The notes beneath the pieces were generated by a model. That model searched no databases. It was not told the origin of the DNA and saw only the letters and a list, made by a program, of their open reading frames with translations. Of a stretch of 64,000 bases of DNA, positions 2,693 to 33,476 are shown in pieces; position 1 is the first letter of the stretch, and the number at the start of each line of letters is the position of its first letter. This DNA comes from Noviherbaspirillum cavernae (GTDB taxonomy: Bacteria > Pseudomonadota > Gammaproteobacteria > Burkholderiales > Burkholderiaceae_D), in assembly GCF_003590875.1 (NCBI RefSeq), contig NZ_QYUN01000003.1, positions 186,001 through 250,000 on the forward strand. The letters are read 5' to 3'. The position numbers were made by a program, and so were the translations under genes.

Positions 2693-2799
2693 CGGACTCC
2701 CATTCCGATCCGTTCACGGGCCGCGCCGGTAAAAACCGGGCACGGGTCCGCGAGAACGGGCAACTACGGCGCGTTGCAATTCTTGTTTGAAAATGCGGA

Positions 2800-2964
2800 T
2801 CAGCTCGCCAGCCGCTGCTCCAGCTGTGCCGCCAGCACGTTCAGCATACGCAACCTCGCGTGATCCGTGTAGTAACTGTCTGTCAGTGGAGATTCTGTCG
2901 ATCTTTTGAGCGTTTCGATTTCGGCGAGCATCTTCCTCAACTTCAGCCGGTAATACCATTTCAT
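2800..2964 (-). CDS. Very small basic helical protein (54 aa), unknown function
   Basis: This short ORF begins MKWYYRLKLRKMLAE and ends LAAQLEQRLAS. Two ATG codons lie two codons apart; AAGGGG directly abuts the first (2970) and is six bases from the second (2964), so the second is the likely start. The N-terminus is aromatic and basic (KWYYRLKLRK), which suggests association with membrane or nucleic acid, and the rest is an amphipathic helix. It precedes the 102-residue coiled-coil gene on the same strand with a gap of about 107 bp. No family is recognised. Confidence 0.55.
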   Translation of the reverse strand: MKWYYRLKLRKMLAEIETLKRSTESPLTDSYYTDHARLRMLNVLAAQLEQRLAS

Positions 2965-3058
2965 TGTCATCCCCTTGGAACTAAAACACTTGCAACATTT
3001 GCTCTAGATCGTCAATTCGGTAATTAGTTCCACACAAGAAACAAATGATTTTGCGGCG

Positions 3059-3089
3059 CGCTGCGGCAGGCGTCACACCTGCCGCAGCG
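3059..3089. other. Perfect 12-bp stem-loop in the intergenic region
   Basis: CGCTGCGGCAGG and CCTGCCGCAGCG form a perfect stem with a 7-base loop (CGTCACA). It lies between the small minus-strand gene starting at 2964 and the SPW gene starting at 3201. Neither strand has a T run after it, so it is either an mRNA leader structure or a protein site rather than a classic terminator. Confidence 0.5.
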
Positions 3090-3200
3090 AGGCGGCGCTG
3101 CCGCTGAACGGCGGCCTGATGCACATCCTGGAACATTTCCATTTTTGAAATATCTAATGTTCAGGAAGGCAAGGGGGCGCATACGTAAAGGAGCAAGGAT

Positions 3201-3575
3201 ATGGACGCGAAAATGACAACCAGGCGATGGCAAGACTGGGGCAACTTGTTGCTTGGAGCATGGCTGTTTGTATCCCCTTGGGTAATGCTGTATCCGGCTG
3301 ATGTACCGAGTGCGATGTGGAACGCCTACATTCTCGGCAGCGCGATCGTGGTGTTTGCGATCATCGCAATATACTTGCCGCGCGCATGGGAAGAAGGCTT
3401 GAACATGCTGTTTGGCCTCTGGCTCGTCATTTCTCCCTGGGTGCTGGGATTCTCCATGTACAGGGACATCACGGCAAATGCGGTAATCGTCGGCGTGTTT
3501 GTGGCGGCACTCGCTGCATGGGCGATGACGCATGACAAGGAGTTCGCCGCATGGCGGCAAAAGCTGCATGTCTGA
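3201..3575 (+). CDS. SPW-repeat membrane protein
   Basis: A 124-residue integral membrane protein with two copies of the SPW motif, SPWVMLY near residue 25 and SPWVLGF near residue 80, each followed by a hydrophobic segment. Four membrane helices are predicted. This is the SPW-repeat family, known from sequence but without an assigned biochemical role. The start ATG at 3201 has AAAGGAG upstream. It stands alone on the plus strand and a strong terminator follows at 3688-3723, so it is probably monocistronic. Confidence 0.88.
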   Translation: MDAKMTTRRWQDWGNLLLGAWLFVSPWVMLYPADVPSAMWNAYILGSAIVVFAIIAIYLPRAWEEGLNMLFGLWLVISPWVLGFSMYRDITANAVIVGVFVAALAAWAMTHDKEFAAWRQKLHV

Positions 3576-3687
3576 CTGGAGCGACGACACAGGCGGCATG
3601 AGGATGCGCCGCAGGAGCATCAAGGCGCATCAGGATGCAGCCGGGAGCCGCTGAAGCGGTCCGCCCGCCGCAACGAGCGGTGCGACT

Positions 3688-3723
3688 ATCCCGCCGGTAG
3701 AGATACCGCTGCGGGATTTTTTT
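3688..3723 (+). terminator. Rho-independent terminator after the SPW gene
   Basis: ATCCCGC-CGGTA pairs with TACCG-GCGGGAT (two unpaired bases on the right arm), followed by an uninterrupted T run at 3717-3723. It is about 110 bp past the SPW stop codon. Confidence 0.8.
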
Positions 3724-3754
3724 ATGCTCCCGTTTATCGGCAAAAATCGGCAAC

Positions 3755-3780
3755 AAAAAAGCCGTGCATCGCTGCACGGC
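3755..3780 (-). terminator. Rho-independent terminator of the Hsp20 gene
   Basis: GCCGTGCA and TGCACGGC form a perfect 8-bp stem with a 4-base loop; read on the minus strand it ends in six T. It lies 30 bp past the Hsp20 stop codon, facing the plus-strand terminator at 3688-3723. Confidence 0.85.
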
Positions 3781-3809
3781 TCTCTGGCCGCATGCCGACG
3801 GCATGACGA

Positions 3810-4289
3810 CTATTGCACGGTAAGCTTTTTCGCCTCCGTCGCGCGCTTCTTCGGCAGGGACAGCATCAGGATGCCGTTCTCCAGCCGGGCCTGGGCGGCG
3901 CTCTCGTCCACTTCCGAGGGCAGCGTGAAGCTGCGTGCGAAATGCCGCGTTATGCGTTCCGCATAGACGATGCTCTCGCCCTCTTTTTGCGCCGACTCGC
4001 GTTTGGCTTCGCCTTCGATCGAGACGCGCTGATTCTCGACCGCGACCTTGATGTCTTCCTTCTTGACGCCGGGCATTTCCGCCTCGACCTCGAACGACTT
4101 GTCGTTTTCCGTGACTGTCAGCCGCGGGCTGGCGATGTCGTCCGCACCCTGCCGCGACAACGCGGAATACGGCGAACCTGGCGCAAGGAAATCCTCAAAC
4201 ATGTTTTCAACCATCCGTCCGAAGGAATCGTCCATCGACGCGGGACGGTACGTTGAAAGCGGTGAAGCATGACGTCTGATGATGTTCAT
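3810..4289 (-). CDS. Hsp20/alpha-crystallin small heat shock protein
   Basis: A 159-residue small heat shock protein that would bind unfolding clients in the cytoplasm and hold them for DnaK refolding. A variable N-terminus (about 1-50) precedes the alpha-crystallin domain (about 50-150), which starts with SPRLTVTENDKSFEVEAEMPGVKKEDIKV-like sequence and ends with the conserved ARLENGILMLSLPKK strand. The start has AAAGGAGG upstream. A promoter with a TTGAAA -35 lies 57-84 bp upstream of the start codon and a terminator follows the gene. A second, divergent Hsp20 is present at 35.8 kb, so the organism has at least two types. Confidence 0.95.
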   Translation of the reverse strand: MNIIRRHASPLSTYRPASMDDSFGRMVENMFEDFLAPGSPYSALSRQGADDIASPRLTVTENDKSFEVEAEMPGVKKEDIKVAVENQRVSIEGEAKRESAQKEGESIVYAERITRHFARSFTLPSEVDESAAQARLENGILMLSLPKKRATEAKKLTVQ

Positions 4290-4345
4290 GACCGCCTCCT
4301 TTCACTGTCTTTCATCACATCGGGCTCATCTCGCCCCATGCTTTC

Positions 4346-4373
4346 TTTATAGCCTTCCAGACAGCGATTTCAA
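4346..4373 (-). promoter_or_regulatory. Candidate promoter of hsp20
   Basis: On the minus strand TTGAAA and TATAAA are separated by 16 bp. The -35 is embedded in CTTGAAA, which also matches the heat-shock sigma-32 -35 hexamer, but the -10 does not match CCCCAT. Position relative to the start codon is suitable. Sigma-32 control is inference. Confidence 0.5.
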
Positions 4374-4604
4374 GAGTGCGGCTGCGCGTGCAGGCTGCCG
4401 AAGCAGCTCGCCGTGCGGATCTACGTAGAGGCATTCGCATGACTTCAATATTTGAATGCAATCTTGATAACCCTGCGACGCGATCCTGTTCATTATTCAG
4501 CGTGCCGCTGCGGCGAGTTGCTGCACTCCTGCGGCCCGGCTTGCGTGCCGCATGCGCATGACGCAACGCAGCATGCGCACTTCTTGATTTTCGCGAATCG
4601 TTCA

Positions 4605-4628
4605 GCTATTGTACAAACGTTCAATAGC
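4605..4628 (+). promoter_or_regulatory. Candidate operator of the SorC-type regulator
   Basis: GCTATTG and CAATAGC form a 7-bp dyad with a 10-base spacer, 26 bp upstream of the chosen regulator start at 4654. SorC/DeoR-type sugar regulators bind such dyads near their own promoters, so autoregulation is plausible. Confidence 0.45.
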
Positions 4629-4653
4629 CGTGATCATCTGTTCAAAGCATGCA

Positions 4654-5664
4654 ATGACCAACATGGATCGCCAGGAAACCGCCCTCGCCGCTGTGCGCGT
4701 GGCGCGCCTTTACTACTTTCAGGAGATGACGACCGCCGTCATTGCGGAAGAGATGGGAACGTCCAGGGCAACGGTGTCGCGCCTGCTGTCGTACGCAAAG
4801 GAAAAAGGCCTGGTCGAGATCCGCGTGCACGATCCGAGCGAGCAATCCGGCTCGCTGGGAGAAGCGATCAAGGAACACTATCAACTGCGCTCGATTCAGG
4901 TCGTTCCGGTGTCCGACACGGCCAGCGAACAGGAGAAACTGCAGCGCGTCGCCGCGCATGCCGCCGCCTACCTCAATACCCTGGTTGTGCCTTCGTCGGT
5001 GCTGGGTCTGGCATGGGGAAACACGGTTGCCGCCATTGCCGACAACCTGATGCCCAAGCATGTGCATGCCATCGACGTGGTGCAGTTGAACGGTTCCGCC
5101 ACCGGCCTCGATATCGTCAACACATTCGGCGAATCGATCGTGTCGCGCTTTGCGCAGAACTACGGCGGCAGAGCGCACAGCTTTCCGGTTCCGGCGTTCT
5201 TTGACTATGCAGAAACCCGTGCGGCGCTGTGGCGGGAACGCAGCATCAAGTCCATCCGCAGCCTGCAGGACAACGCATCGATCCTGCTGTTCAGCATCGG
5301 CGCAATGGAAACCAGCAGCCACATCTATACCGGCGGCTACCTGGACAAGAAGGACCTGCAGGACATCCGCAAGGACGGCGTGGTCGGCGATATCGCAACG
5401 ATGTTCTTCCGCGGCGACGGCAGCTGGCGCGACATCACGCTGAACGCACGCAGCAGCGGCCCCGATCTGAACCGCTTTCAACGCGCGGACCACTCGATCT
5501 GCGTGGTGTCAGGCAAGGGCAAGATCCCCGGTCTGCAGGCGGCGCTCCTGGGCGGTTTCATCAACGAGCTGGTCATCGACGAACCGACCGCGCGACTCCT
5601 CATTGGCGACATCGGCATGGCGCGGCCGGTCGCGGAAAAGAAACGACGCAAGAATACAAGATGA
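4654..5664 (+). CDS. SorC-family sugar-binding transcriptional regulator
   Basis: A 336-residue regulator with an N-terminal helix-turn-helix (about 10-60; TTAVIAEEMGTSRATVSRLL) and a C-terminal SorC sugar-phosphate binding domain (about 65-330; VLGLAWGNTVAAI and the GGYLDKKDL region). This family binds phosphorylated sugars or polyols. I place the start at the ATG at 4654 because the frame upstream runs through the dyad at 4605-4628; an earlier TTG at 4609 and a later ATG at 4663 are alternatives. It overlaps the glpD start by ATGA and so probably controls the downstream glycerol-phosphate operon, where E. coli would use GlpR and PhoB. The effector is likely glycerol 3-phosphate or a related compound (inference). 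Confidence 0.9.
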   Translation: MTNMDRQETALAAVRVARLYYFQEMTTAVIAEEMGTSRATVSRLLSYAKEKGLVEIRVHDPSEQSGSLGEAIKEHYQLRSIQVVPVSDTASEQEKLQRVAAHAAAYLNTLVVPSSVLGLAWGNTVAAIADNLMPKHVHAIDVVQLNGSATGLDIVNTFGESIVSRFAQNYGGRAHSFPVPAFFDYAETRAALWRERSIKSIRSLQDNASILLFSIGAMETSSHIYTGGYLDKKDLQDIRKDGVVGDIATMFFRGDGSWRDITLNARSSGPDLNRFQRADHSICVVSGKGKIPGLQAALLGGFINELVIDEPTARLLIGDIGMARPVAEKKRRKNTR

Positions 5665-7235
5665 CCAAGATGACAAACACGGCTACTTACGATCTGTTGA
5701 TCATCGGCGGCGGCATCAATGGCGCCGGCATCGCCCGCGATGCGGCAGGCCGCGGCCTGTCCGTGGCGCTGTGCGAGCAGAACGACTTCGCGGGCGCGAC
5801 CTCGTCCGCCAGCACCAAGCTGATTCACGGCGGCCTGCGCTATCTGGAGTATTACGAGTTCCGCCTGGTGTCCGAGGCGCTGGCCGAGCGCGAACACCTG
5901 CTCGATATCGCGCCGCACATTTCCTGGCCCCTGCGTTTCATCATGCCGCACGTCAAAGGCCTGCGTCCGCGCTGGATGATCCGGCTCGGCCTGTGGCTGT
6001 ACGATCACATCGGCGGGCGCATCAGCCTACCGCATTCGCAGGCGGTGGACCTGAACCGGCTGCCCGCATCCAGCGGTCTGCGCCATGACATCGCCCGAGG
6101 TTTTGCCTACTCCGATGCATGGGTGGATGATGCGCGGCTGGTGATCCTCAATCTGCTCAGTGCCCAGGAACATGGCGCCGACATCCTTGCGCGCACCCGG
6201 CTCGCTGCCGCCGAGCGTGCGGACGGGGCGTGGCGGTGCGTACTGGAAAACACGCTCACTCATGCGCAGCAGACGGTCACCGCACGGGCGATTGTCAATG
6301 CGACCGGCCCCTGGGTCGCGACGATGGATCGCCTGCTGAATCCTGCGCCGAAGTCGGCATCGGGACATGCCGCGGTCAAGCTGGTGCGCGGCAGCCATAT
6401 CGTCGTGCCGCGATTGTTCGCCGGCGAACATGCATACATCCTGCAGAACGACGACCGGCGCATCGTCTTCATGATCCCCTACGAGGAGCGCTACACGCTG
6501 ATCGGCACCACCGATGTGCCGCAGGAAAACATGGACAAGGGCGCGCGCATCAGCGCGGACGAGGAGGCCTACCTGCTGCGCGCCGTCAATGCCTACCTGG
6601 AGAAGCCGATCGCCGGCGGCGATATCGTCTGGCGATATGCCGGCGTGCGGCCGCTGTTCGATGACGAATCCGACAATCCTTCGGCCGTCACGCGCGACTA
6701 CACGCTCGTCCTTCAGGATGAACAGAATATTCCGTGCGTGTCCATCTATGGCGGAAAGATCACGACCTACCGCCGCCTGGCCGAATCCGTGCTCGACAAG
6801 CTCGCACCATGGACGAGCACCCGCCGCGGATCGTGGACGAAACAGGAGCCGCTGCCCGGCGGGAATTTCAAGCGCGCCGACCGCGCAAAGGAAGTCACAC
6901 GCCTGCAAGAAAAGTTTGGCAAACTTGCGCCACGCTTCCTCGGACAGCTGTTTTCCCGTCACGGATTGAATGCATACAACATCTTGAGAGAAGCGCAAAC
7001 CCATGAGGAGCTGGGGCGCGATTTCGGCGGCGGCCTGACACAGCGCGAGGTCGATTACCTGGTGCTGCACGAATGGGCGCACAGCGCCGACGACATTCTC
7101 TGGCGGCGCACCAAGTGCGGCCTGCACATGAGCGAGCAGCAAAGATCCGCATTCGCCGAATATTTCGCTGCGCGCGGCACGCGTGCTGCGGCCGACGGCG
7201 CAGCGGACCGGACTCAACATCCAATCACAAATTAA
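5661..7235 (+). CDS. glpD: Aerobic glycerol-3-phosphate dehydrogenase
   Basis: A 524-residue FAD-dependent dehydrogenase that oxidises sn-glycerol 3-phosphate to dihydroxyacetone phosphate and passes electrons to quinone at the inner membrane. The N-terminus has the dinucleotide motif LLIIGGGINGAGIARDAA and the family signature SSASTKLIHGGLRYLE; IGTTDVPQ and YGGKITTYRRLAE follow, and a C-terminal DAO_C domain (about 395-510) completes the usual length. The start ATG overlaps the stop of the SorC regulator, so the two are translationally coupled. It is followed after 9 bp by ugpC, linking import of glycerol phosphate with its oxidation. Confidence 0.97.
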   Translation: MTKMTNTATYDLLIIGGGINGAGIARDAAGRGLSVALCEQNDFAGATSSASTKLIHGGLRYLEYYEFRLVSEALAEREHLLDIAPHISWPLRFIMPHVKGLRPRWMIRLGLWLYDHIGGRISLPHSQAVDLNRLPASSGLRHDIARGFAYSDAWVDDARLVILNLLSAQEHGADILARTRLAAAERADGAWRCVLENTLTHAQQTVTARAIVNATGPWVATMDRLLNPAPKSASGHAAVKLVRGSHIVVPRLFAGEHAYILQNDDRRIVFMIPYEERYTLIGTTDVPQENMDKGARISADEEAYLLRAVNAYLEKPIAGGDIVWRYAGVRPLFDDESDNPSAVTRDYTLVLQDEQNIPCVSIYGGKITTYRRLAESVLDKLAPWTSTRRGSWTKQEPLPGGNFKRADRAKEVTRLQEKFGKLAPRFLGQLFSRHGLNAYNILREAQTHEELGRDFGGGLTQREVDYLVLHEWAHSADDILWRRTKCGLHMSEQQRSAFAEYFAARGTRAAADGAADRTQHPITN

Positions 7236-7244
7236 AGGACTGCG

Positions 7245-8297
7245 ATGGCAGCAATTTCGCTACAAGGCATCACAAAGAACTGGGGAGAGGCGCAAGCCGT
7301 CAAGGGCATCGACTTCGAGGTCAAATCGGGCGACTTCACGGTGCTGCTCGGCCCGTCCGGCTGCGGCAAGTCGACCACGCTGCGCCTGATCGCCGGCCTT
7401 GACACGCCGTCCACGGGCAACATCCGCATCGGCGAGCGCGACGTCACGAACCTGCCGCCGGCGCAACGCAAGATCGCGATGGTCTTCCAGTCGTATGCCC
7501 TGTTTCCGCATCTGAATGTGCGCGACAACATCCTGTTCGGCGTGCGCGTGCGCAAGGAACCCAGCAAGCATTTCGAAACCCGGCTCAAGCGCGTTTCCGA
7601 CATTCTCGGTCTGAGCCACCTGCTCGACCGGCGTCCCGGCCAGCTCTCCGGCGGCCAGCAGCAGCGCGTCGCGCTGGGCCGGGCCATCATCGCCGAGACG
7701 CCGGTGTGCCTGATGGACGAACCGCTTTCCAATCTCGATGCGCAGCTGCGCCAGGAAATGCGTCGCGAAATCCGCGCATTGCAGCAGCAGCTGGGCATGA
7801 CGATGATCTACGTCACGCATGACCAGACCGAAGCGATGAGCATGGCCGACCAGGTCATCCTGCTGCGCGACGGCCGCATCGAGCAGAACGCACCGCCCGG
7901 CGAACTGTATGCGCAGCCGGCGTCGATCTTCGCCGCGCGCTTTATCGGCACGCCGCCGATGAACATCCTGCCATTGAGCGCCACCCCGGCCGGCATGGTG
8001 ATCGACGGCAGCAACGGCCCGGCCGTCCTGCCGCACAACGCCGCCGAGGAATGGCAGCTCGGCGTGCGGCCCGAACATATCCGCCTCGTCGAGCGGGGCA
8101 TCCCCGCCGTCGTCGAGAACATCGAATATTTTGGCGCCGACACCATCGTCGGCGCCAGAGTAGGCAACGCACCGCTGCTGATACGAGTGCCGGGTCAACT
8201 GGCACTGGATGCAGGCAACACGGTTCAACTCGGCTGGGATGAGTCGAACCAGTATTTCTTCGACAAGAAGACAGGCTTGCGGCGTCACCTGGCCTAG
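7245..8297 (+). CDS. ugpC: sn-Glycerol-3-phosphate ABC transporter ATP-binding protein
   Basis: A 350-residue ATPase of the MalK/UgpC type. Walker A is GPSGCGKST, the signature is LSGGQQQR, Walker B is CLMDEPLSNLD and the switch histidine is in YVTHDQTEA. The C-terminal part (about 235-350) is a TOBE regulatory domain. It energises uptake through UgpA and UgpE. The frame starts 9 bp after glpD and is preceded by AAAGGA. The role as Ugp rather than a generic sugar ATPase rests on the neighbours (glpD and matching permeases). Confidence 0.93.
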   Translation: MAAISLQGITKNWGEAQAVKGIDFEVKSGDFTVLLGPSGCGKSTTLRLIAGLDTPSTGNIRIGERDVTNLPPAQRKIAMVFQSYALFPHLNVRDNILFGVRVRKEPSKHFETRLKRVSDILGLSHLLDRRPGQLSGGQQQRVALGRAIIAETPVCLMDEPLSNLDAQLRQEMRREIRALQQQLGMTMIYVTHDQTEAMSMADQVILLRDGRIEQNAPPGELYAQPASIFAARFIGTPPMNILPLSATPAGMVIDGSNGPAVLPHNAAEEWQLGVRPEHIRLVERGIPAVVENIEYFGADTIVGARVGNAPLLIRVPGQLALDAGNTVQLGWDESNQYFFDKKTGLRRHLA

Positions 8298-25992: not shown

Positions 25993-26212
25993 AGTGAAAT
26001 CATTCCGCATGCAAGAGCGGCCGATATGTCATCGACCGTGAATGCGGCAATGATGGCCGCAGGGCAGCCAGGCTGGAGCGATGAGTGGTATGCGATTCAA
26101 AAAGCCATGCCAGTCGGCGCAGGACGTTCAAGCGTTTTGAACGCGGCACGCCGCTCAAGGGAGGCACTTGCCCGACAACGATGCCATCCGCAGTCAGGCA
26201 AGTGTTGGCATG

Positions 26213-27244
26213 CTACCCCTCCGTGGTCTTGACCGCCGTTGCATGAAGCGAGGATGCAGCCTGTTTCGTCTCTTTCGGCTTCCTGAGCTTCTTGAACAAC
26301 GCGCCCAACTCCCCCACGATGCCCCTGCGGAAGGCCAGCACGCAGACGATGAAGATGGCGCCGGTGACGATGGTGACGGATTCGCCGATGGTGCGGAACC
26401 ACTCGACATTGGTCGTCACCGCCAGCCAGTTGCCGAGGTCGCCCAGCTTGTTCTCCAGCGCGATGATCACGATCGCGCCGACGATCGGCCCGGTCAGGGT
26501 GCCGAGGCCGCCCACCAGCGTCATCAAGACCACCAGCCCCGACATGCTCCAGTGCACGTCGGTCAGCGTCTCGAAGCCCAGCACCACCGTCTTGGTGGCC
26601 CCCGCCAGCCCCGCCAGCGCCGCCGACAGCACGAACGCCAGCAGCTTGAAGCGGTCGACGTCGTACCCCAGGGAAACGGCGCGCGGCTCGTTCTCCTTGA
26701 CCGCCTTCAGCACCTGGCCGAACGGCGAATGCACGGTGCGCACGATCAGCGCGAAGCCGGCCGCCGCGATCGCCAGCACCACGTAGTACAGCGTCAGGTC
26801 GTGCCCCAGATCGATGATCCCCAGCAATTTGCCGCGTGGCACGCCCTGCAGGCCGTCCTCGCCGCCGGTGGCCGGCAGCTGCAGGCACACGAAGTACAGC
26901 ATCTGCGCCAAGGCCAGCGTGATCATGGTGAAGTAGATCCCCTGGCGGCGGATCGCCAGCGCCCCCATCACGAGGCCGATGGCGGCGGCCGCCGCCGTGC
27001 CGGCCAGCAGGCCCAGCTCGAACGGCACACCCCACACCTTCAGCGCATGGCCGGCGACGTAGCCGGCGCCGCCGAAGAAGGCGGCATGGCCGAACGACAG
27101 CAGGCCGGTGAAGCCGATCAGCAGGTTGAAGGCGCACGCGAACAGCGCAAAGCACAGCACCTTCATCAGGAACACCGGGTACAGGAAGAATGGCGCCGCC
27201 ACGGCGGCCGCCACTGCGATTGCATATCCGACTCTCTTGTCCAT
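26213..27244 (-). CDS. livM: Branched-chain amino acid-type ABC permease LivM
   Basis: A 343-residue permease with about ten membrane helices and the LivM features LIGFTGLLSFGHAAFFGGAGYVAG and VRTVHSPFGQVLKAVKENEPRA. TTG, GTG and ATG codons occur in a row at the start; AAGGGGAG is correctly spaced from the ATG at 27244. It is last in the pruA-livKGFHM operon and forms the channel with LivH. Confidence 0.94.
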   Translation of the reverse strand: MDKRVGYAIAVAAAVAAPFFLYPVFLMKVLCFALFACAFNLLIGFTGLLSFGHAAFFGGAGYVAGHALKVWGVPFELGLLAGTAAAAAIGLVMGALAIRRQGIYFTMITLALAQMLYFVCLQLPATGGEDGLQGVPRGKLLGIIDLGHDLTLYYVVLAIAAAGFALIVRTVHSPFGQVLKAVKENEPRAVSLGYDVDRFKLLAFVLSAALAGLAGATKTVVLGFETLTDVHWSMSGLVVLMTLVGGLGTLTGPIVGAIVIIALENKLGDLGNWLAVTTNVEWFRTIGESVTIVTGAIFIVCVLAFRRGIVGELGALFKKLRKPKETKQAASSLHATAVKTTEG

Positions 27245-27272
27245 CACCAACTCCCCTTGTTTCTCTCTTTGC

Positions 27273-28160
27273 TCATTTCTCTTTGCCGAACAGCCCGGCC
27301 GGCCGGATCATCAGCACGATCGCCATGATGATGAACACCACCGTGGCCGACAGTTCCGGGTAGAACACCCGCGTCAGGCCCTCGATCACGCCCAGCCCGA
27401 GCCCGGTCACGATCGAGCCGAGGATCGAGCCCATGCCGCCGATCACCACCACCGCGAACACCACGATGATCAGGTTGCTGCCCATCAAGGGCGAGACCTG
27501 GATCACCGGTGCCGCCAGCACCCCGGCGAAGGCCGCCAGCGCCACCCCGAAGCCGTAGGTCAGGGTCACCATCAGCGGCACGTTGATGCCGAACGCCTCC
27601 ACCAGCCGCGGGTTCTCGGTGCCGGCGCGCAGGTAGGCGCCCAGTTTCGTCTTCTCGATCACGAACCAGGTGGCGAGGCACACCGCCAGCGAGGCGACCA
27701 CCACCCAGGCGCGGTACTTCGGCAGGATCATGAAGCCGAGGTTGAAGGCGCCCGAGAGCGCCTCCGGCACCGAATACGGCTGGCCGGAGACGCCGTAGAA
27801 GGAGCGGAACAGGCCTTCCACCATGAGCGTGATGCCGAACGTCAGCAGCAGGCCGTACAGGTGGTCCAGCTTGTACAGCCAGCGCAGCATGGTCTTCTCG
27901 ATCACGATGCCGAAGGCCGCCACCACCAGCGGCGCCAGCAGCAGCATCGGCCAGTAGCCGATGCCGAGGTAGTTCAGCCCCATCCAGGCGAGGAACGCGC
28001 CCATCATGTACAGCGCGCCATGCGCGAAATTGATCACGTTGAGCAGGCCGAAGATCACCGCCAGCCCCAGCGACAGCATGGCGTAGAACGAGCCGTTGAC
28101 CAGTCCCAGCAAGAGCTGGCTCAACATCGCTTGCAGCGGAATTCCAAAGATTTCTGTCAT
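27273..28160 (-). CDS. livH: Branched-chain amino acid-type ABC permease LivH
   Basis: A 295-residue permease with eight or so membrane segments. It contains LLNVINFAHGALYMMGAF and RAGTENPRLVEAFGINV, both typical of LivH. The ATG at 28160 has GAGGA upstream. It lies 10 bp after livF and 28 bp before livM. Confidence 0.95.
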   Translation of the reverse strand: MTEIFGIPLQAMLSQLLLGLVNGSFYAMLSLGLAVIFGLLNVINFAHGALYMMGAFLAWMGLNYLGIGYWPMLLLAPLVVAAFGIVIEKTMLRWLYKLDHLYGLLLTFGITLMVEGLFRSFYGVSGQPYSVPEALSGAFNLGFMILPKYRAWVVVASLAVCLATWFVIEKTKLGAYLRAGTENPRLVEAFGINVPLMVTLTYGFGVALAAFAGVLAAPVIQVSPLMGSNLIIVVFAVVVIGGMGSILGSIVTGLGLGVIEGLTRVFYPELSATVVFIIMAIVLMIRPAGLFGKEK

Positions 28161-28170
28161 ATCGTCCTCA

Positions 28171-28878
28171 CTACACGCCCAGCAATTCATTCAATACCGG
28201 CATCTTGTCATTCAGTTCGGATGCAGCGAAGGATTCCACGATCTGGCCGTGCTCCATCACGTAGAAGCGGTCGGCCAGCGGCGCGGCGAAGCGGAAGTTC
28301 TGCTCCACCATCACGATCGTGTAGCCCCGCGCCTTCAGGGTCGTGATCATGCGCGCCAGCGCCTGCACGATCACCGGCGCCAGTCCTTCCGAGATCTCGT
28401 CCAGCAGCAAGAGGCGCGCGCCGGTGCGCAGGATGCGCGCCACCGCCAGCATCTGCTGCTCGCCGCCCGACAGCCGCGTGCCCTGACTCATGCGGCGCTC
28501 GGCCAGATTCGGGAACATGGCGTAGATTTCCTCGACCGACATGCCGCGCTCGGTTTTCGACACCGATGGCGGCAGCAGCAGGTTTTCCTCCGCCGACAGC
28601 GAGGCGAAGATGCCGCGTTCCTCCGGGCAGTAGCCGATGCCGAGATGCGCGATCTGGTGTGTCGGCAGGTGGATCGATTCCACCCCGCCGACCTTGATCG
28701 AGCCGGTGCGCCGTCCGGTCAGGCCCATGATGGCGCGCAGCGTGGTGGTGCGACCCGCGCCGTTTCTGCCCAGCAGCGTGACGACCTCGCCCTGGTCCAC
28801 GGAAAGATTGACGTCGTGCAGGATGTGCGATTCGCCGTACCACGCCTGCAGGTTGGTGATTTCGAGTGCCTTGCTCAT
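28171..28878 (-). CDS. livF: ABC transporter ATP-binding protein LivF with Arg in Walker A
   Basis: A 235-residue ATPase of the LivF family. The signature is RLSGGEQQML, Walker B is LLLLDEISEGLAP and the switch His-equivalent is in VMVEQNF. The P-loop reads GRNGAGRTT, with arginine (codon CGC) where the catalytic lysine of GxxxxGKT/S is expected. All other motifs are intact, so this looks like a clade variant rather than decay. Its start overlaps livG by ATGA, and LivG retains a normal P-loop, so the LivFG heterodimer would have one atypical site. Confidence 0.93.
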   Translation of the reverse strand: MSKALEITNLQAWYGESHILHDVNLSVDQGEVVTLLGRNGAGRTTTLRAIMGLTGRRTGSIKVGGVESIHLPTHQIAHLGIGYCPEERGIFASLSAEENLLLPPSVSKTERGMSVEEIYAMFPNLAERRMSQGTRLSGGEQQMLAVARILRTGARLLLLDEISEGLAPVIVQALARMITTLKARGYTIVMVEQNFRFAAPLADRFYVMEHGQIVESFAASELNDKMPVLNELLGV

Positions 28879-29648
28879 CCGTGCGCTCCTTCCAGCGCGC
28901 CGCTGGTGGTGCCCATGTAGGCTTCCATCACCTGCGGATTGTTCGATACTTCCTCGTAGTTGCCTTCGGCCAGCAGCGCGCCGCGCTGCAGCACCGAGAT
29001 GCGGTCGCAGATGCCCGACACCACGCTCATGTTGTGCTCCACCATGAGGATCGTGCGGCCTGCGGACACCTTCCGGATCAGTTCCGTCACGCGGTGCACG
29101 TCCTCGTGCCCCATGCCCTGGGTCGGCTCGTCCAGCAGCATCAGTTCCGGCTCCATCGCCAGCGTGGTGGCGATCTCGAGCGCGCGCTTGCGGCCGTAGG
29201 GCAGATCGACCGTCAGGGTGTCGGCGAAGCTCTCCAGATCGACCTCGGCCAGCAGCTGCATGGCGCGGCCGTTGAGCTGATCCAGCGTGCGTTCGCTCTT
29301 CCAGAAGTGGTAGGAGGTGCCGAGCGCGCGCTGCAGGCCGATGCGCACGTTCTCCAGCACGCTCAGGTGCGGGAACACGGCCGAGATCTGGAACGAGCGG
29401 ATCACGCCGCGATGCGCGATCTGCTCCGGCTTCAGGGCCGTGATGTCGTCGCCGTTGTACAGGATCGCGCCGGCCGTGGGCGTCAGGAACTTCGTCAGCA
29501 GATTGAAGAACGTCGTCTTGCCGGCGCCGTTCGGCCCGATCAGGGCGTGAATCGAACCGCGCCTGACCTTGAGACTGACGTCATTCACGGCGGTGAACCC
29601 CTTGAATTCCTTCGTCAGGTTCCGCACTTCGAGTACGTTGGTTTGCAT
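28875..29648 (-). CDS. livG: ABC transporter ATP-binding protein LivG
   Basis: A 257-residue ATPase. Walker A is GPNGAGKTT; the Walker B region is LMLLDEPTQGM and the switch is ILMVEHNM. The signature helix is degenerate: where LSGGQ is expected the sequence reads LPYGRKRALEIATTLA, a form common in LivG. It follows the binding-protein gene after about 150 bp and overlaps livF by ATGA. Confidence 0.94.
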   Translation of the reverse strand: MQTNVLEVRNLTKEFKGFTAVNDVSLKVRRGSIHALIGPNGAGKTTFFNLLTKFLTPTAGAILYNGDDITALKPEQIAHRGVIRSFQISAVFPHLSVLENVRIGLQRALGTSYHFWKSERTLDQLNGRAMQLLAEVDLESFADTLTVDLPYGRKRALEIATTLAMEPELMLLDEPTQGMGHEDVHRVTELIRKVSAGRTILMVEHNMSVVSGICDRISVLQRGALLAEGNYEEVSNNPQVMEAYMGTTSGALEGAHG

Positions 29649-29796
29649 AGTGTAGAAATTGAAAACGACAGGATGGCGTCCGACACCTTGCCTGGAGACA
29701 AAGTGCAGACACGGAGACTGCGCGTTGACGCACCACGCAACCCATCAGGGCGACGCGGTGCATCCTTCGGTGTTGATTACAACAGCAGACGGAGGC

Positions 29797-31002
29797 TTAA
29801 CGCTTGACCATGCTGCAGCGCGAAGCCGTCAGAGGCTGGAAGGCTTCCGCTGCGGGAACGGTCGCAACCAGCTTCAGGTAATCCCACGGGGACTTGGATT
29901 CCGCCGGGGTCTTCACTTCCATCATGTACATGTCGTGCATCATGCGGCCGTCTTCACGGATGTACGCATTCTTGGCGAACATGTCGTTGATCTTGACCTT
30001 CTTCATCTGCGCCATGACCTTGTCCGCATCATCGCTGCCGGTGGCGGCGATCGCCTTCAGGTATTGCGACACGGCCGAGTAGGTTCCGGCGTGCACCATG
30101 TTCGGCATGCGCTTCATGCGGTCGAAGAAGCGCTTGCCGAATGCGCGCGAATCCGCGTTCATGTCCCAGTACCACGCGTCGGTGAACTTCATCTTTTGCG
30201 TCTGCTGGAGGCCGAGGCTGTGCACGTCGCTGATCGTCATCAACAGGCCGACCAGGGTCTGCTTCGGCGTGATGCCGAATTCATTGGCCGCCTTGATCGA
30301 GTTGATCACGTCGCCACCGGCGTTCGCCAGACCCACCACTTGCGCTTTCGACGATTGTGCCTGCAGCAGGAAGGAGGAGAAGTCGGACGCATTCAGCGGG
30401 TGCTTGACACTGCCGAGCACAGTGCCGCCGTTGGCCTTCACCACTTCGGACGTATCTTTTTCGAGCGACGCACCAAAAGCATAGTCGGCGGTCAGGAAGT
30501 ACCAGCTCTTGTATCCCTGCTTGACCATCGCCTTGCCGGCCACGTTGGCGAGCGAAAAAGTGTCGTACACATAGTGCACGATGTACGGCGAGCATTCTTC
30601 GTTGGTGTGGCGCAGGTTGGCGCCGCCGGTGATCAGGGCCACGCGCTTCTTGTCGGAAGCCATGCGCGACACGGCCAGCGCGACCGACGAGTTCGGCAGG
30701 TCGACGACGGCATCGACGCCGTCGCGGTCAAACCATTCGCGCGCCTTGGCGCTGCCGATGTCGGCCTTGTTCTGGTGATCGGCCATGATCAGCTCGATCT
30801 TCTTGCCATTCACCTTGCCGCCGAAATCCTCGACCGCCATCCGTGCCGCCTCGACCGAACCCTTGCCGGCGTAGTCCAGGTAGACGCCGGAGAGGTCCGT
30901 CATCACGCCGATCCTGATGACGTCGTCGGAAACTTGCGCACGGGCGGGGCCTGCCGCAGCGAAGGCCAGTGCGATGCTGCACATCAAAACGGATTTCTTC
31001 AT
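29797..31002 (-). CDS. Periplasmic amino acid-type binding protein (LivK-like)
   Basis: A 401-residue type 1 periplasmic binding protein with a signal peptide (residues 1-22, ending PARAQ). The receptor fold starts VIRIGVMTDLSGVYLDYAGKGSVEAARMAVEDFGG. It delivers ligand to the LivHMGF transporter encoded next. Because the upstream gene is a pyrroline-5-carboxylate dehydrogenase, the ligand may be proline or a related amino acid rather than leucine (inference). A GGGAG site lies seven bases before the ATG. Confidence 0.92.
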   Translation of the reverse strand: MKKSVLMCSIALAFAAAGPARAQVSDDVIRIGVMTDLSGVYLDYAGKGSVEAARMAVEDFGGKVNGKKIELIMADHQNKADIGSAKAREWFDRDGVDAVVDLPNSSVALAVSRMASDKKRVALITGGANLRHTNEECSPYIVHYVYDTFSLANVAGKAMVKQGYKSWYFLTADYAFGASLEKDTSEVVKANGGTVLGSVKHPLNASDFSSFLLQAQSSKAQVVGLANAGGDVINSIKAANEFGITPKQTLVGLLMTISDVHSLGLQQTQKMKFTDAWYWDMNADSRAFGKRFFDRMKRMPNMVHAGTYSAVSQYLKAIAATGSDDADKVMAQMKKVKINDMFAKNAYIREDGRMMHDMYMMEVKTPAESKSPWDYLKLVATVPAAEAFQPLTASRCSMVKR

Positions 31003-31066
31003 GTGTTGACTCCCTGGTTGTTGTACTTCGAACTTCGAATGAATCCGGAACCCCGGACGGTTTTTG

Positions 31067-32689
31067 CTACGCCATGAACGGATAGGTATAGTCGGTCGGT
31101 GGCGCCGATGTCTCCTTCACCGTGCGCGGCGAAACCCAGCGCAGCAGGTTGAGCGCGGACCCGGCCTTGTCGTTGGTGCCGCTGCGACGCGCACCGCCGA
31201 AGGGCTGCTGACCTACGACAGCGCCTGTCGGCTTGTCGTTGACGTAGAAATTACCGGCCGCGAAGCGCAATGCCTGTGCAGCCTGCTGCACTGCTGCGCG
31301 ATCACGAGCAAAAACCGCGCCGGTCAATGCGTAGGGGCTGGTGCCGTCAACCAGCTTGAGCACCTCATCCCATTGGCTGTCCTGATAGACGTAGACCGAC
31401 AGGACCGGGCCGAAGATTTCGTTCTTCATCAGCGCGTGTTGCGGATCGCTGACCTCGATCACGGTCGGCGCAACGAAATAGCCGACGCTGTCGTCCGTGC
31501 CGCCGCCCACCAGGATGGAGGCCGAGGCGTCCGCCTTTGCCTGGCCGATCGCGTTGCCGATCCGTTCGAACGCACGACGATCGATCACGGCACTCATGAA
31601 ATTGCTGAAGTCGCAGACATCGCCCATCTTGATGGTCTGCACCATGCCGACCAGGCGTTCCTTCACCGCCGGCCAGAGCGATGCCGGGATGTAGGCACGC
31701 GAGGCCGCGCTGCACTTCTGGCCCTGGTATTCGAAGGCGCCGCGCACCAGCCCGACCACCAACGCATCGACATCGGCCGACGCGTGCGCCAGCACGAAAT
31801 CCTTGCCGCCGGTTTCGCCGACCAGACGCGGATAGGCGCGGTAGTTGGAGATGTTGCGACCGACTTCGGACCACAGTGAATCGAACACGGCGGTCGATCC
31901 GGTGAAGTGAATCCCTGCCAGCGACGGATGCTTGAGGACGATATCGCTCATCTCCATCGGATCGGCCGGGACGAAATTGATCACGCCTTTCGGCAAACCG
32001 GCCTCTTCCAGCAGTTCCATGAACAGGTAGTTGCTGAGGGCAGCAGTGGTGGCGGGCTTCCACACCACCGTATTGCCCATCAATGCCGGCGCGATGGCGA
32101 GATTGCCGCCGATAGCCGTGAAATTGAACGGTGTCACGGCGTAGACGAAGCCTTCCAGCGGACGGTATTCCAGACGATTGCGCACACCGGCGGACGACAG
32201 CGGCTGCCCGGCCTCGATTTCATGCGCGAACTGCACATTGAAGCGCAGGAAGTCGATCAGTTCGCAGGCCGAATCGATTTCCGCCTGATAGGCGGTCTTG
32301 CTCTGACCGAGCATCGTGGCCGCATTCAGTTTTGCGCGCCACGGTCCGGCCAGCAGATCCGCGGCCTTCAGGAAGACGGCGGAGCGTTCCTACAAGGTCC
32401 AGCGGCTCCAGTCGCGCTGGGCCGCGCATGCGCCATCGATCGCCTTTTGAATGCCATCGGCTCCCGCAAGGCTGACCTTCGCCAGTACCCGCTGATGATC
32501 ATGCGGCGCGCGCACTGTCGTGCCATCTTCGTCAAACAGGCGTTCGCCGTTCGCCACGACGCTGATGTCGATGCTACGGTTCTTCTGGACTTCGAGTTCA
32601 GCCTGAAGCGCTGCACGCTCGGGGGAGCCCGGAGCGTAGGAAAGAACCGGCTCGTTCGGGAACGTTGGATACTGGTTAGATGTCAACAT
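31067..32689 (-). pseudogene. pruA: 1-pyrroline-5-carboxylate dehydrogenase interrupted by one amber codon
   Basis: A continuous frame of 541 codons encodes a group 1 P5C dehydrogenase (oxidises glutamate semialdehyde to glutamate with NAD), except for a TAG at 32390-32392, codon 100. The sequence reads DWSRWTL-stop-ERSAVFLKAADLL, with no shift in frame; a single GAG to TAG change explains it. The rest is intact, including the catalytic Cys in GQKCSAASRA, the Glu in LVGETGGKD and the C-terminus. Possible readings are a recent nonsense mutation, an assembly or base-calling error, or amber suppression. It heads the liv operon and is divergent from a GntR gene. Downstream re-initiation at MLGQSKTAY (32314) would lack about 125 residues. 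Confidence 0.9.
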
Positions 32690-32706
32690 AATACGATTTT
32701 TCTAAA

Positions 32707-32716
32707 TTGGATCCAA
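32707..32716. promoter_or_regulatory. Candidate GntR operator upstream of pruA
   Basis: TTGGATCCAA is a perfect 10-bp palindrome in an AT-rich stretch, 18 bp upstream of the pruA start and about 90 bp upstream of the GntR start. Palindromes of this size are common for FCD-type GntR regulators. Confidence 0.5.
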
Positions 32717-32804
32717 AATATAAAAGAGTGGATGCAGTGTAGCAGGAGATTTATTCAGGCACAATAGAGCCCTCGTTGACTTTTGACATCAAGAATCCGC
32801 CCTC

Positions 32805-33476
32805 ATGGCCCACCCCCGAAGCTCTTCTTCCGCCCCATCCAAAGGCTTGCCTCAAATGATTCGCGACCAGTTGCGCGACGAAATCCTGAAAGGCACCCTT
32901 CCCGCCGGCACCCAGTTGCGGCAGGATGCATTGGCAGAACGCTTCAGTACCAGCCGCATCCCGGTCAGGGAAGCCTTGCGGAAACTTGAAACGGAAGGTC
33001 TGGTGTCTTACGAGCGCAATCGGGGCGCGATCGTGATCGAGATGGATGTCACCCAGATCTGCGAATTGCTCGATATCCGCGTCGCACTGGAATGCCACGC
33101 AATCAGACTCAGCATTCCGAACATGGTGCAGATGGATTTCGACCAGATGCAGGAGATCCTCGACGCGTATTCCGCCTCGGAATCCATCACGGAATGGGCG
33201 GAATACAATCGCCGCTTCCACCTCGCCCTCAGCGCGCCCGCCAACAACCTCAAGCTGCGGCGACTGATCGAGGAGTTCTGCCTGAATACCGACCGCTACA
33301 CGCATGAAATGATGTCGATTGCGACCGGCAAGGAAGGCCCGCAATCCGATCACTACGAGATTCTCGATGCCTGCAAGAAAGGGGATGCAGATGCGGCGGT
33401 CAAGCTGCTGGAACTGCACATTCTGGAAACCAAGAAGAACCTGCTGGCAACTGACAGGATGAAGCAAGCCCTGTAG
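32805..33476 (+). CDS. GntR-family regulator divergent from pruA
   Basis: A 223-residue regulator with a winged helix (about 15-80; AGTQLRQDALAERFSTSRIPVREALRKLETEGLV) and an FCD effector domain (about 88-210; ELLDIRVALECHAIRL, YNRRFHLALSAPANN, HYEILDACKKGDADAAVKLLELHI). It reads away from the pruA-liv operon and is the likely local controller, with the palindrome at 32707-32716 as a site. The effector would be the transported amino acid or a breakdown product (inference). Confidence 0.92.
   Translation: MAHPRSSSSAPSKGLPQMIRDQLRDEILKGTLPAGTQLRQDALAERFSTSRIPVREALRKLETEGLVSYERNRGAIVIEMDVTQICELLDIRVALECHAIRLSIPNMVQMDFDQMQEILDAYSASESITEWAEYNRRFHLALSAPANNLKLRRLIEEFCLNTDRYTHEMMSIATGKEGPQSDHYEILDACKKGDADAAVKLLELHILETKKNLLATDRMKQAL

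Follow-up and report, generated by a model that had tools for sequence, protein, structure and literature searches.

Does an amber codon in the body of a gene mean that the gene has been lost, that it is read through, or that a base has been called wrongly? The question is raised by pruA of Noviherbaspirillum cavernae, the gene for a monofunctional P5C (L-glutamate gamma-semialdehyde) dehydrogenase, which lies on the minus strand at 31067..32689 of a 64,000-nucleotide stretch of DNA (the whole of which is here called the window). A first-pass annotation, made from the letters of the window, had described a single in-frame amber codon in an otherwise intact pruA and had put forward all three readings.

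The pruA frame and its internal stop

The frame comprises 541 codons, of which 540 precede a terminator that is itself TAG. The only stop ahead of that terminator is the TAG at codon 100 (32392..32390, minus strand), which is evident on reading the frame and was also detected when the genome was searched for the Aldedh family, pruA alone among the 15 matches being flagged with an internal stop. Once the stop is masked, the product matches TIGR01236, a family of P5C dehydrogenases, at 819.7 bits, above the curated equivalog cut-off of 613.6, and so is a member; its score against PF00171 is 340.2 bits. A member of TIGR01236 would be read from an uninterrupted frame, and that of pruA is broken by the TAG at codon 100. 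The solved structures closest to PruA by sequence are P5C dehydrogenases. Cys326 and Glu292, which from knowledge of aldehyde dehydrogenases we take to be catalytic, are identical in all 26 aligned sequences. The description of a gene with one amber codon, sound elsewhere and with both catalytic sites kept, is thus borne out. Among the best 120 of 8000 database proteins, the nearest to PruA are named Herbaspirillum and share 80% identity with it, the ten nearest span 75-80%, and those named Cupriavidus 74-75%.

Upstream of the stop is an N-terminal open piece of 99 aa (32390..32689, minus strand), which by itself has no Pfam match and matches TIGR01236 weakly, at 61.9 bits. The earliest ATG, GTG or TTG past the stop is codon 126, at 32314. 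There a 415-aa ORF begins (31067..32314, minus strand), which is without the first 125 residues.

Codon 100 and the conservation of pruA

Comparison of the codon in relatives had been proposed in the first-pass annotation. Homologous DNA was taken from 89 loci, including the best 80 of 584, and one of these was left out because it does not contain codon 100; the codon is a sense codon in all the other 88. Nor is there a stop at this column in any of 207 aligned homologues, which consist of 120 proteins (the best 120 of 8000) and the translations of 87 loci, the two loci without a gene start being omitted. The DNA and protein samples overlap, and some genes are likely to be present twice. Within the samples compared, the pruA stop is private to this genome. 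The residue over the 207 homologues is E in 89, A in 42, Q in 32, D in 31 and H in 6, with T in 4 and N, V and W once each, a spread which suggests that codon 100 tolerates substitution. Gln is found in each of the ten nearest PruA proteins (P0001-P0010, again from the best 120 of 8000) and in seven of eight DNA loci from the same family, the eighth having Glu. The earlier expectation of GAG is therefore unsupported, given the variability of the column and the Gln of the nearest relatives. TAG is nevertheless one substitution from sense codons that relatives use.

Near-invariant columns of the 207-homologue alignment were defined as those at least 97% conserved among the other homologues. PruA departs from the consensus at 1 of 161 such columns, compared to a mean of 1.40 (range 0-8) in the 109 sequences, the window's included, that share less than 86% identity with their nearest neighbour. 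Between pruA and 11 orthologues, pairwise dN/dS was 0.134-0.257 along the entire gene; the part upstream of the stop gave 0.172-0.620 and the part downstream 0.102-0.204. Eight other orthologues, compared among themselves in 28 pairs, had means of 0.195 (range 0.086-0.338) for the entire gene, 0.353 for the upstream part and 0.159 for the downstream part. Whole-gene dS in the pruA comparison is 0.81-1.41, which makes the test a weak one for a recent event. Apart from the stop, then, there is no decay in pruA, and it follows that the stop is recent, or is an error, or has been tolerated because the product is still made. What is found is the pattern of a recent pseudogene, ie a disabled frame, intact relatives and little further decay.

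Assembly quality and strain comparison

The assembly consists of 4 contigs and is 99.84% complete. Frames were checked in 202 domain matches from four families (ABC 100, LysR 48, MFS 39 and Aldedh 15), a check which spans the domain stretches only and in which some matches are fragments. Two internal stops were flagged, and that of pruA is the only true one; the other, a TAG in an MFS gene on contig C2, was discarded, since two MFS genes stand there in tandem and it terminates the first. So low a count argues against a generally poor assembly, although one wrong base would still be compatible with it. A different MFS gene, at G000:C2:656082-657255, was matched in two pieces, in different frames, that cover overlapping parts of the profile, which suggests a frameshift. 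Three further MFS matches, at G000:C2:7847-8848, 3915734-3916735 and 3918330-3919331, have equal scores and frame lengths. They lie near both ends of C2, which suggests either recent copies or an assembly repeat.

No second strain with the window's GntR protein was found, the cluster of that protein holding one contig, equal in length to the replicon of the window. Among the best 120 of 472 GntR proteins no other exceeds 83% identity, and among the best 120 of 8000 pruA homologues none exceeds 80%. With the assembled sequence of one strain alone, a wrongly called base looks the same as a new mutation. The replicon that carries the window has 727,115 bases and a tRNA-Ile and tRNA-Ala pair at G000:C3:618192-618351. 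Pairs like this occur in rRNA operons, and the replicon may for that reason be not a plasmid but a chromid.

Readthrough, suppression and recoding

An amber suppressor tRNA, for which the first-pass annotation had advised a search, was dropped from consideration as none of the 52 tRNA matches in the genome has a CUA anticodon. ARAGORN confirmed 51 of them, none with that anticodon, and the remaining match is degenerate, with an anticodon which by eye is UGU. This last is a tRNA-like remnant of 60 nt at G000:C2:109406-109465, without ARAGORN confirmation. RF1 is present in the genome, above cut-off, and TAG terminates pruA itself, GntR, livF and livM, so reassignment of the codon is out. Pyrrolysine is likewise out, the three genome matches to PylS all being under the cut-off. 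Programmed readthrough or recoding would be expected at a stop that orthologues keep, and this one is shared by 0 of the 88 loci and 0 of the 207 homologues in these best-match samples. The lack of a CUA tRNA, the presence of RF1, the sub-threshold PylS matches and the TAG terminators nearby together make programmed or suppressor-driven readthrough of the pruA stop unlikely.

Folding of the 120 nt that start at the stop gave a z of -2.85, 2 of 200 shuffles being as good, and a separate run gave -2.2. When 51 windows along pruA were scanned, three reached z <= -2.5, starting at codons 101 (-3.49), 111 (-4.05) and 181 (-3.08), so that the most structured RNA stretch of the gene sits just past the stop. 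In 11 orthologues free of the stop, z at the same place ranges from 0.63 to -3.2, with two at -2.49 and -3.2. Since similar structure is seen where no stop exists, that in pruA does not seem to be specific to the TAG. No Rfam element in the window reached its gathering score.

The GntR-pruA-liv neighbourhood

Divergent from pruA is a GntR/FCD regulator (32805..33476, plus strand; PF00392 and PF07729), which ends in TAG. Behind pruA, on the same strand, are five liv genes, as the first-pass annotation has it, in the order livKGFHM: livK, for the substrate-binding protein (29797..31002), and livG, for an ATP-binding subunit (28875..29648), both identified by profile and locus comparison, livG having a near-identical copy on C2; and, by locus comparison, livF for an ATP-binding subunit (28171..28878) and the permease genes livH (27273..28190) and livM (26213..27250), livF and livM ending in TAG. 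Two Cupriavidus loci (74-82% identity) keep the GntR-pruA-liv order; one of them, L031, reaches its contig edge within livF. The divergent GntR-pruA pair is present in both of these and in seven of the eight same-family loci, the contig of the eighth ending about 250 nt upstream of pruA. In all eight, pruA is intact and lies near a different, non-orthologous liv set (24-42% identity). The GntR-pruA-liv arrangement is not a general one: a Bordetella locus (L032) is without it, and in 78 others (L033-L110) neither GntR nor livK has an orthologue. A lysine-to-arginine change in the Walker A motif of LivF was dropped as a sign of further decay, as the C2 copy and both Cupriavidus loci have it too.

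In a consensus scan of 26100-33000, promoter and terminator sites were no commoner than in shuffled sequence, and the minus strand had nothing resembling a promoter. The scan thus gives no support to livK having a promoter of its own. Polarity of the pruA stop on transcription of livKGFHM, raised in the first-pass annotation, is plausible.

Redundancy of pruA and liv

An intact trifunctional PutA of 1208 aa is encoded on the main replicon (C2:3813366-3816992). It scores 1850.8 bits, the profile cut-off being 1750, and has proline dehydrogenase, DNA-binding and aldehyde dehydrogenase domains. pruA, by comparison, is found at E <= 1e-100 in 9 of 392 genomes drawn evenly from the larger family, the window's own included, and at the same threshold in none of 14 congeners searched, and is accordingly an accessory gene in the genus.

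A second liv cluster, without pruA, lies at C2:2198702-2203567, and its gene order differs from that in the window. DNA identity to the window copy is 97.5% over 1984 aligned positions for livM-livH and 97.2% over 1447 for livF-livG; the matching stretches are 26184-28154 (livHM) and 28175-29621 (livGF) in the window and 2703-4685 and 6122-7568 in locus L177. livK has diverged, to 70.8% in DNA and 60.6% in protein. The contrast between approximately 97% for livHM and livGF and approximately 71% for livK suggests that these genes were recently duplicated or that the replicons have exchanged sequence by gene conversion. With PutA intact and copies of livGF and livHM available, loss of pruA would be buffered, and any polar effect at least partly backed up.

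Discussion

The best explanation, with a probability of about 0.6, is that pruA, an accessory and redundant gene, has lost all or nearly all of its function through a nonsense mutation that is recent and private to this lineage. Translation would end after 99 residues, giving a fragment without the catalytic residues, and little or no full-length PruA would be expected. The loss would be tolerated because the trifunctional PutA should keep P5C dehydrogenase in the cell; transcription of livKGFHM may drop through polarity, with near-identical livGF and livHM copies elsewhere. This account presumes that the base at codon 100 is called correctly, and we infer both the loss of the enzyme and the tolerance of that loss. 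Two observations tell against it: a gene still working by readthrough, or an error, would likewise show no decay, and a readthrough reading could draw on the fairly strong RNA structure just past the stop.

The main rival is a one-base error in the consensus or base calling, the true pruA being intact. That pruA is otherwise conserved like its relatives, that a single substitution separates TAG from their sense codons and that no other strain confirms the stop all speak for an error, while the good quality of the assembly and the lack of another true internal stop in the 202 domain matches from four families speak against one; we consider it a real, if distinctly less probable, alternative. 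Leaky readthrough by a near-cognate tRNA, giving full-length PruA at a low level with the stop acting as a translational dial, is improbable. It would suit a gene that is still constrained, has fairly strong RNA structure past the codon and varies so much at codon 100 that many inserted residues should be tolerated, and Belinky et al. (2021; PMC7918605) argue that such leakiness is frequent. Against it, the stop is not conserved among the homologues compared, the genome has RF1 but no detected CUA tRNA and no PylS above cut-off, two of the 11 stop-free orthologues have similar RNA structure, and TAG terminates pruA, GntR, livF and livM. Of the readings offered in the first-pass annotation, loss of function and base error both stand, and readthrough is unlikely.

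Reinitiation at the ATG 26 codons past the stop, to give a working 415-aa enzyme, is scarcely credible. The ORF alone scores 696.7 bits against the TIGR01236 cut-off of 613.6, but the first 125 residues would be missing, the start of the Aldedh domain included, and inspection by eye of the 20 nt ahead of the codon-126 ATG shows no clear ribosome-binding sequence. This last point counts little because the 20 nt before the ATG of pruA itself are weak too. A more elaborate possibility, which we hold to be very unlikely as a whole, is that the amber codon is kept as a dial: readthrough, perhaps aided by structure, would give a little PruA, polarity would lower livKGFHM, and a module for proline/P5C uptake and oxidation that is redundant with PutA would thereby be trimmed. 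If readthrough were true, the locus would show how a catabolic operon can be tuned by a stop within a reading frame. With recent loss as the preferred reading, it is an example of loss in a step also encoded by another gene, putA. Its importance beyond annotation is small, although it is a clean case in which one base decides between calling a gene functional and calling it a pseudogene.

Compared to group 1 of TIGR01236 (bacterial PruA and mitochondrial P5C dehydrogenase), the window's PruA is alike over its full sequence, is similar in length and has both presumed catalytic residues; it differs by the internal TAG at codon 100. The clusters of Cupriavidus and of the same family have, as in the window, a divergent GntR gene, pruA and a liv-type ABC transporter, although in the same-family clusters the liv set is non-orthologous and pruA is intact. 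In-frame stops in bacterial genes are, according to Belinky et al. (2021; PMC7918605), widespread, with a tendency to be short-lived and to be surrounded by sequence with dN/dS <1. The pruA stop is most likely an ordinary one, either a recent, tolerated loss or a one-base sequencing error. It fits their picture and is nothing new in kind, being a single stop, apparently short-lived, with purifying selection around it. It differs in being found in one genome, whereas the stops retained there were those common to at least two species, a requirement meant to limit artefacts.
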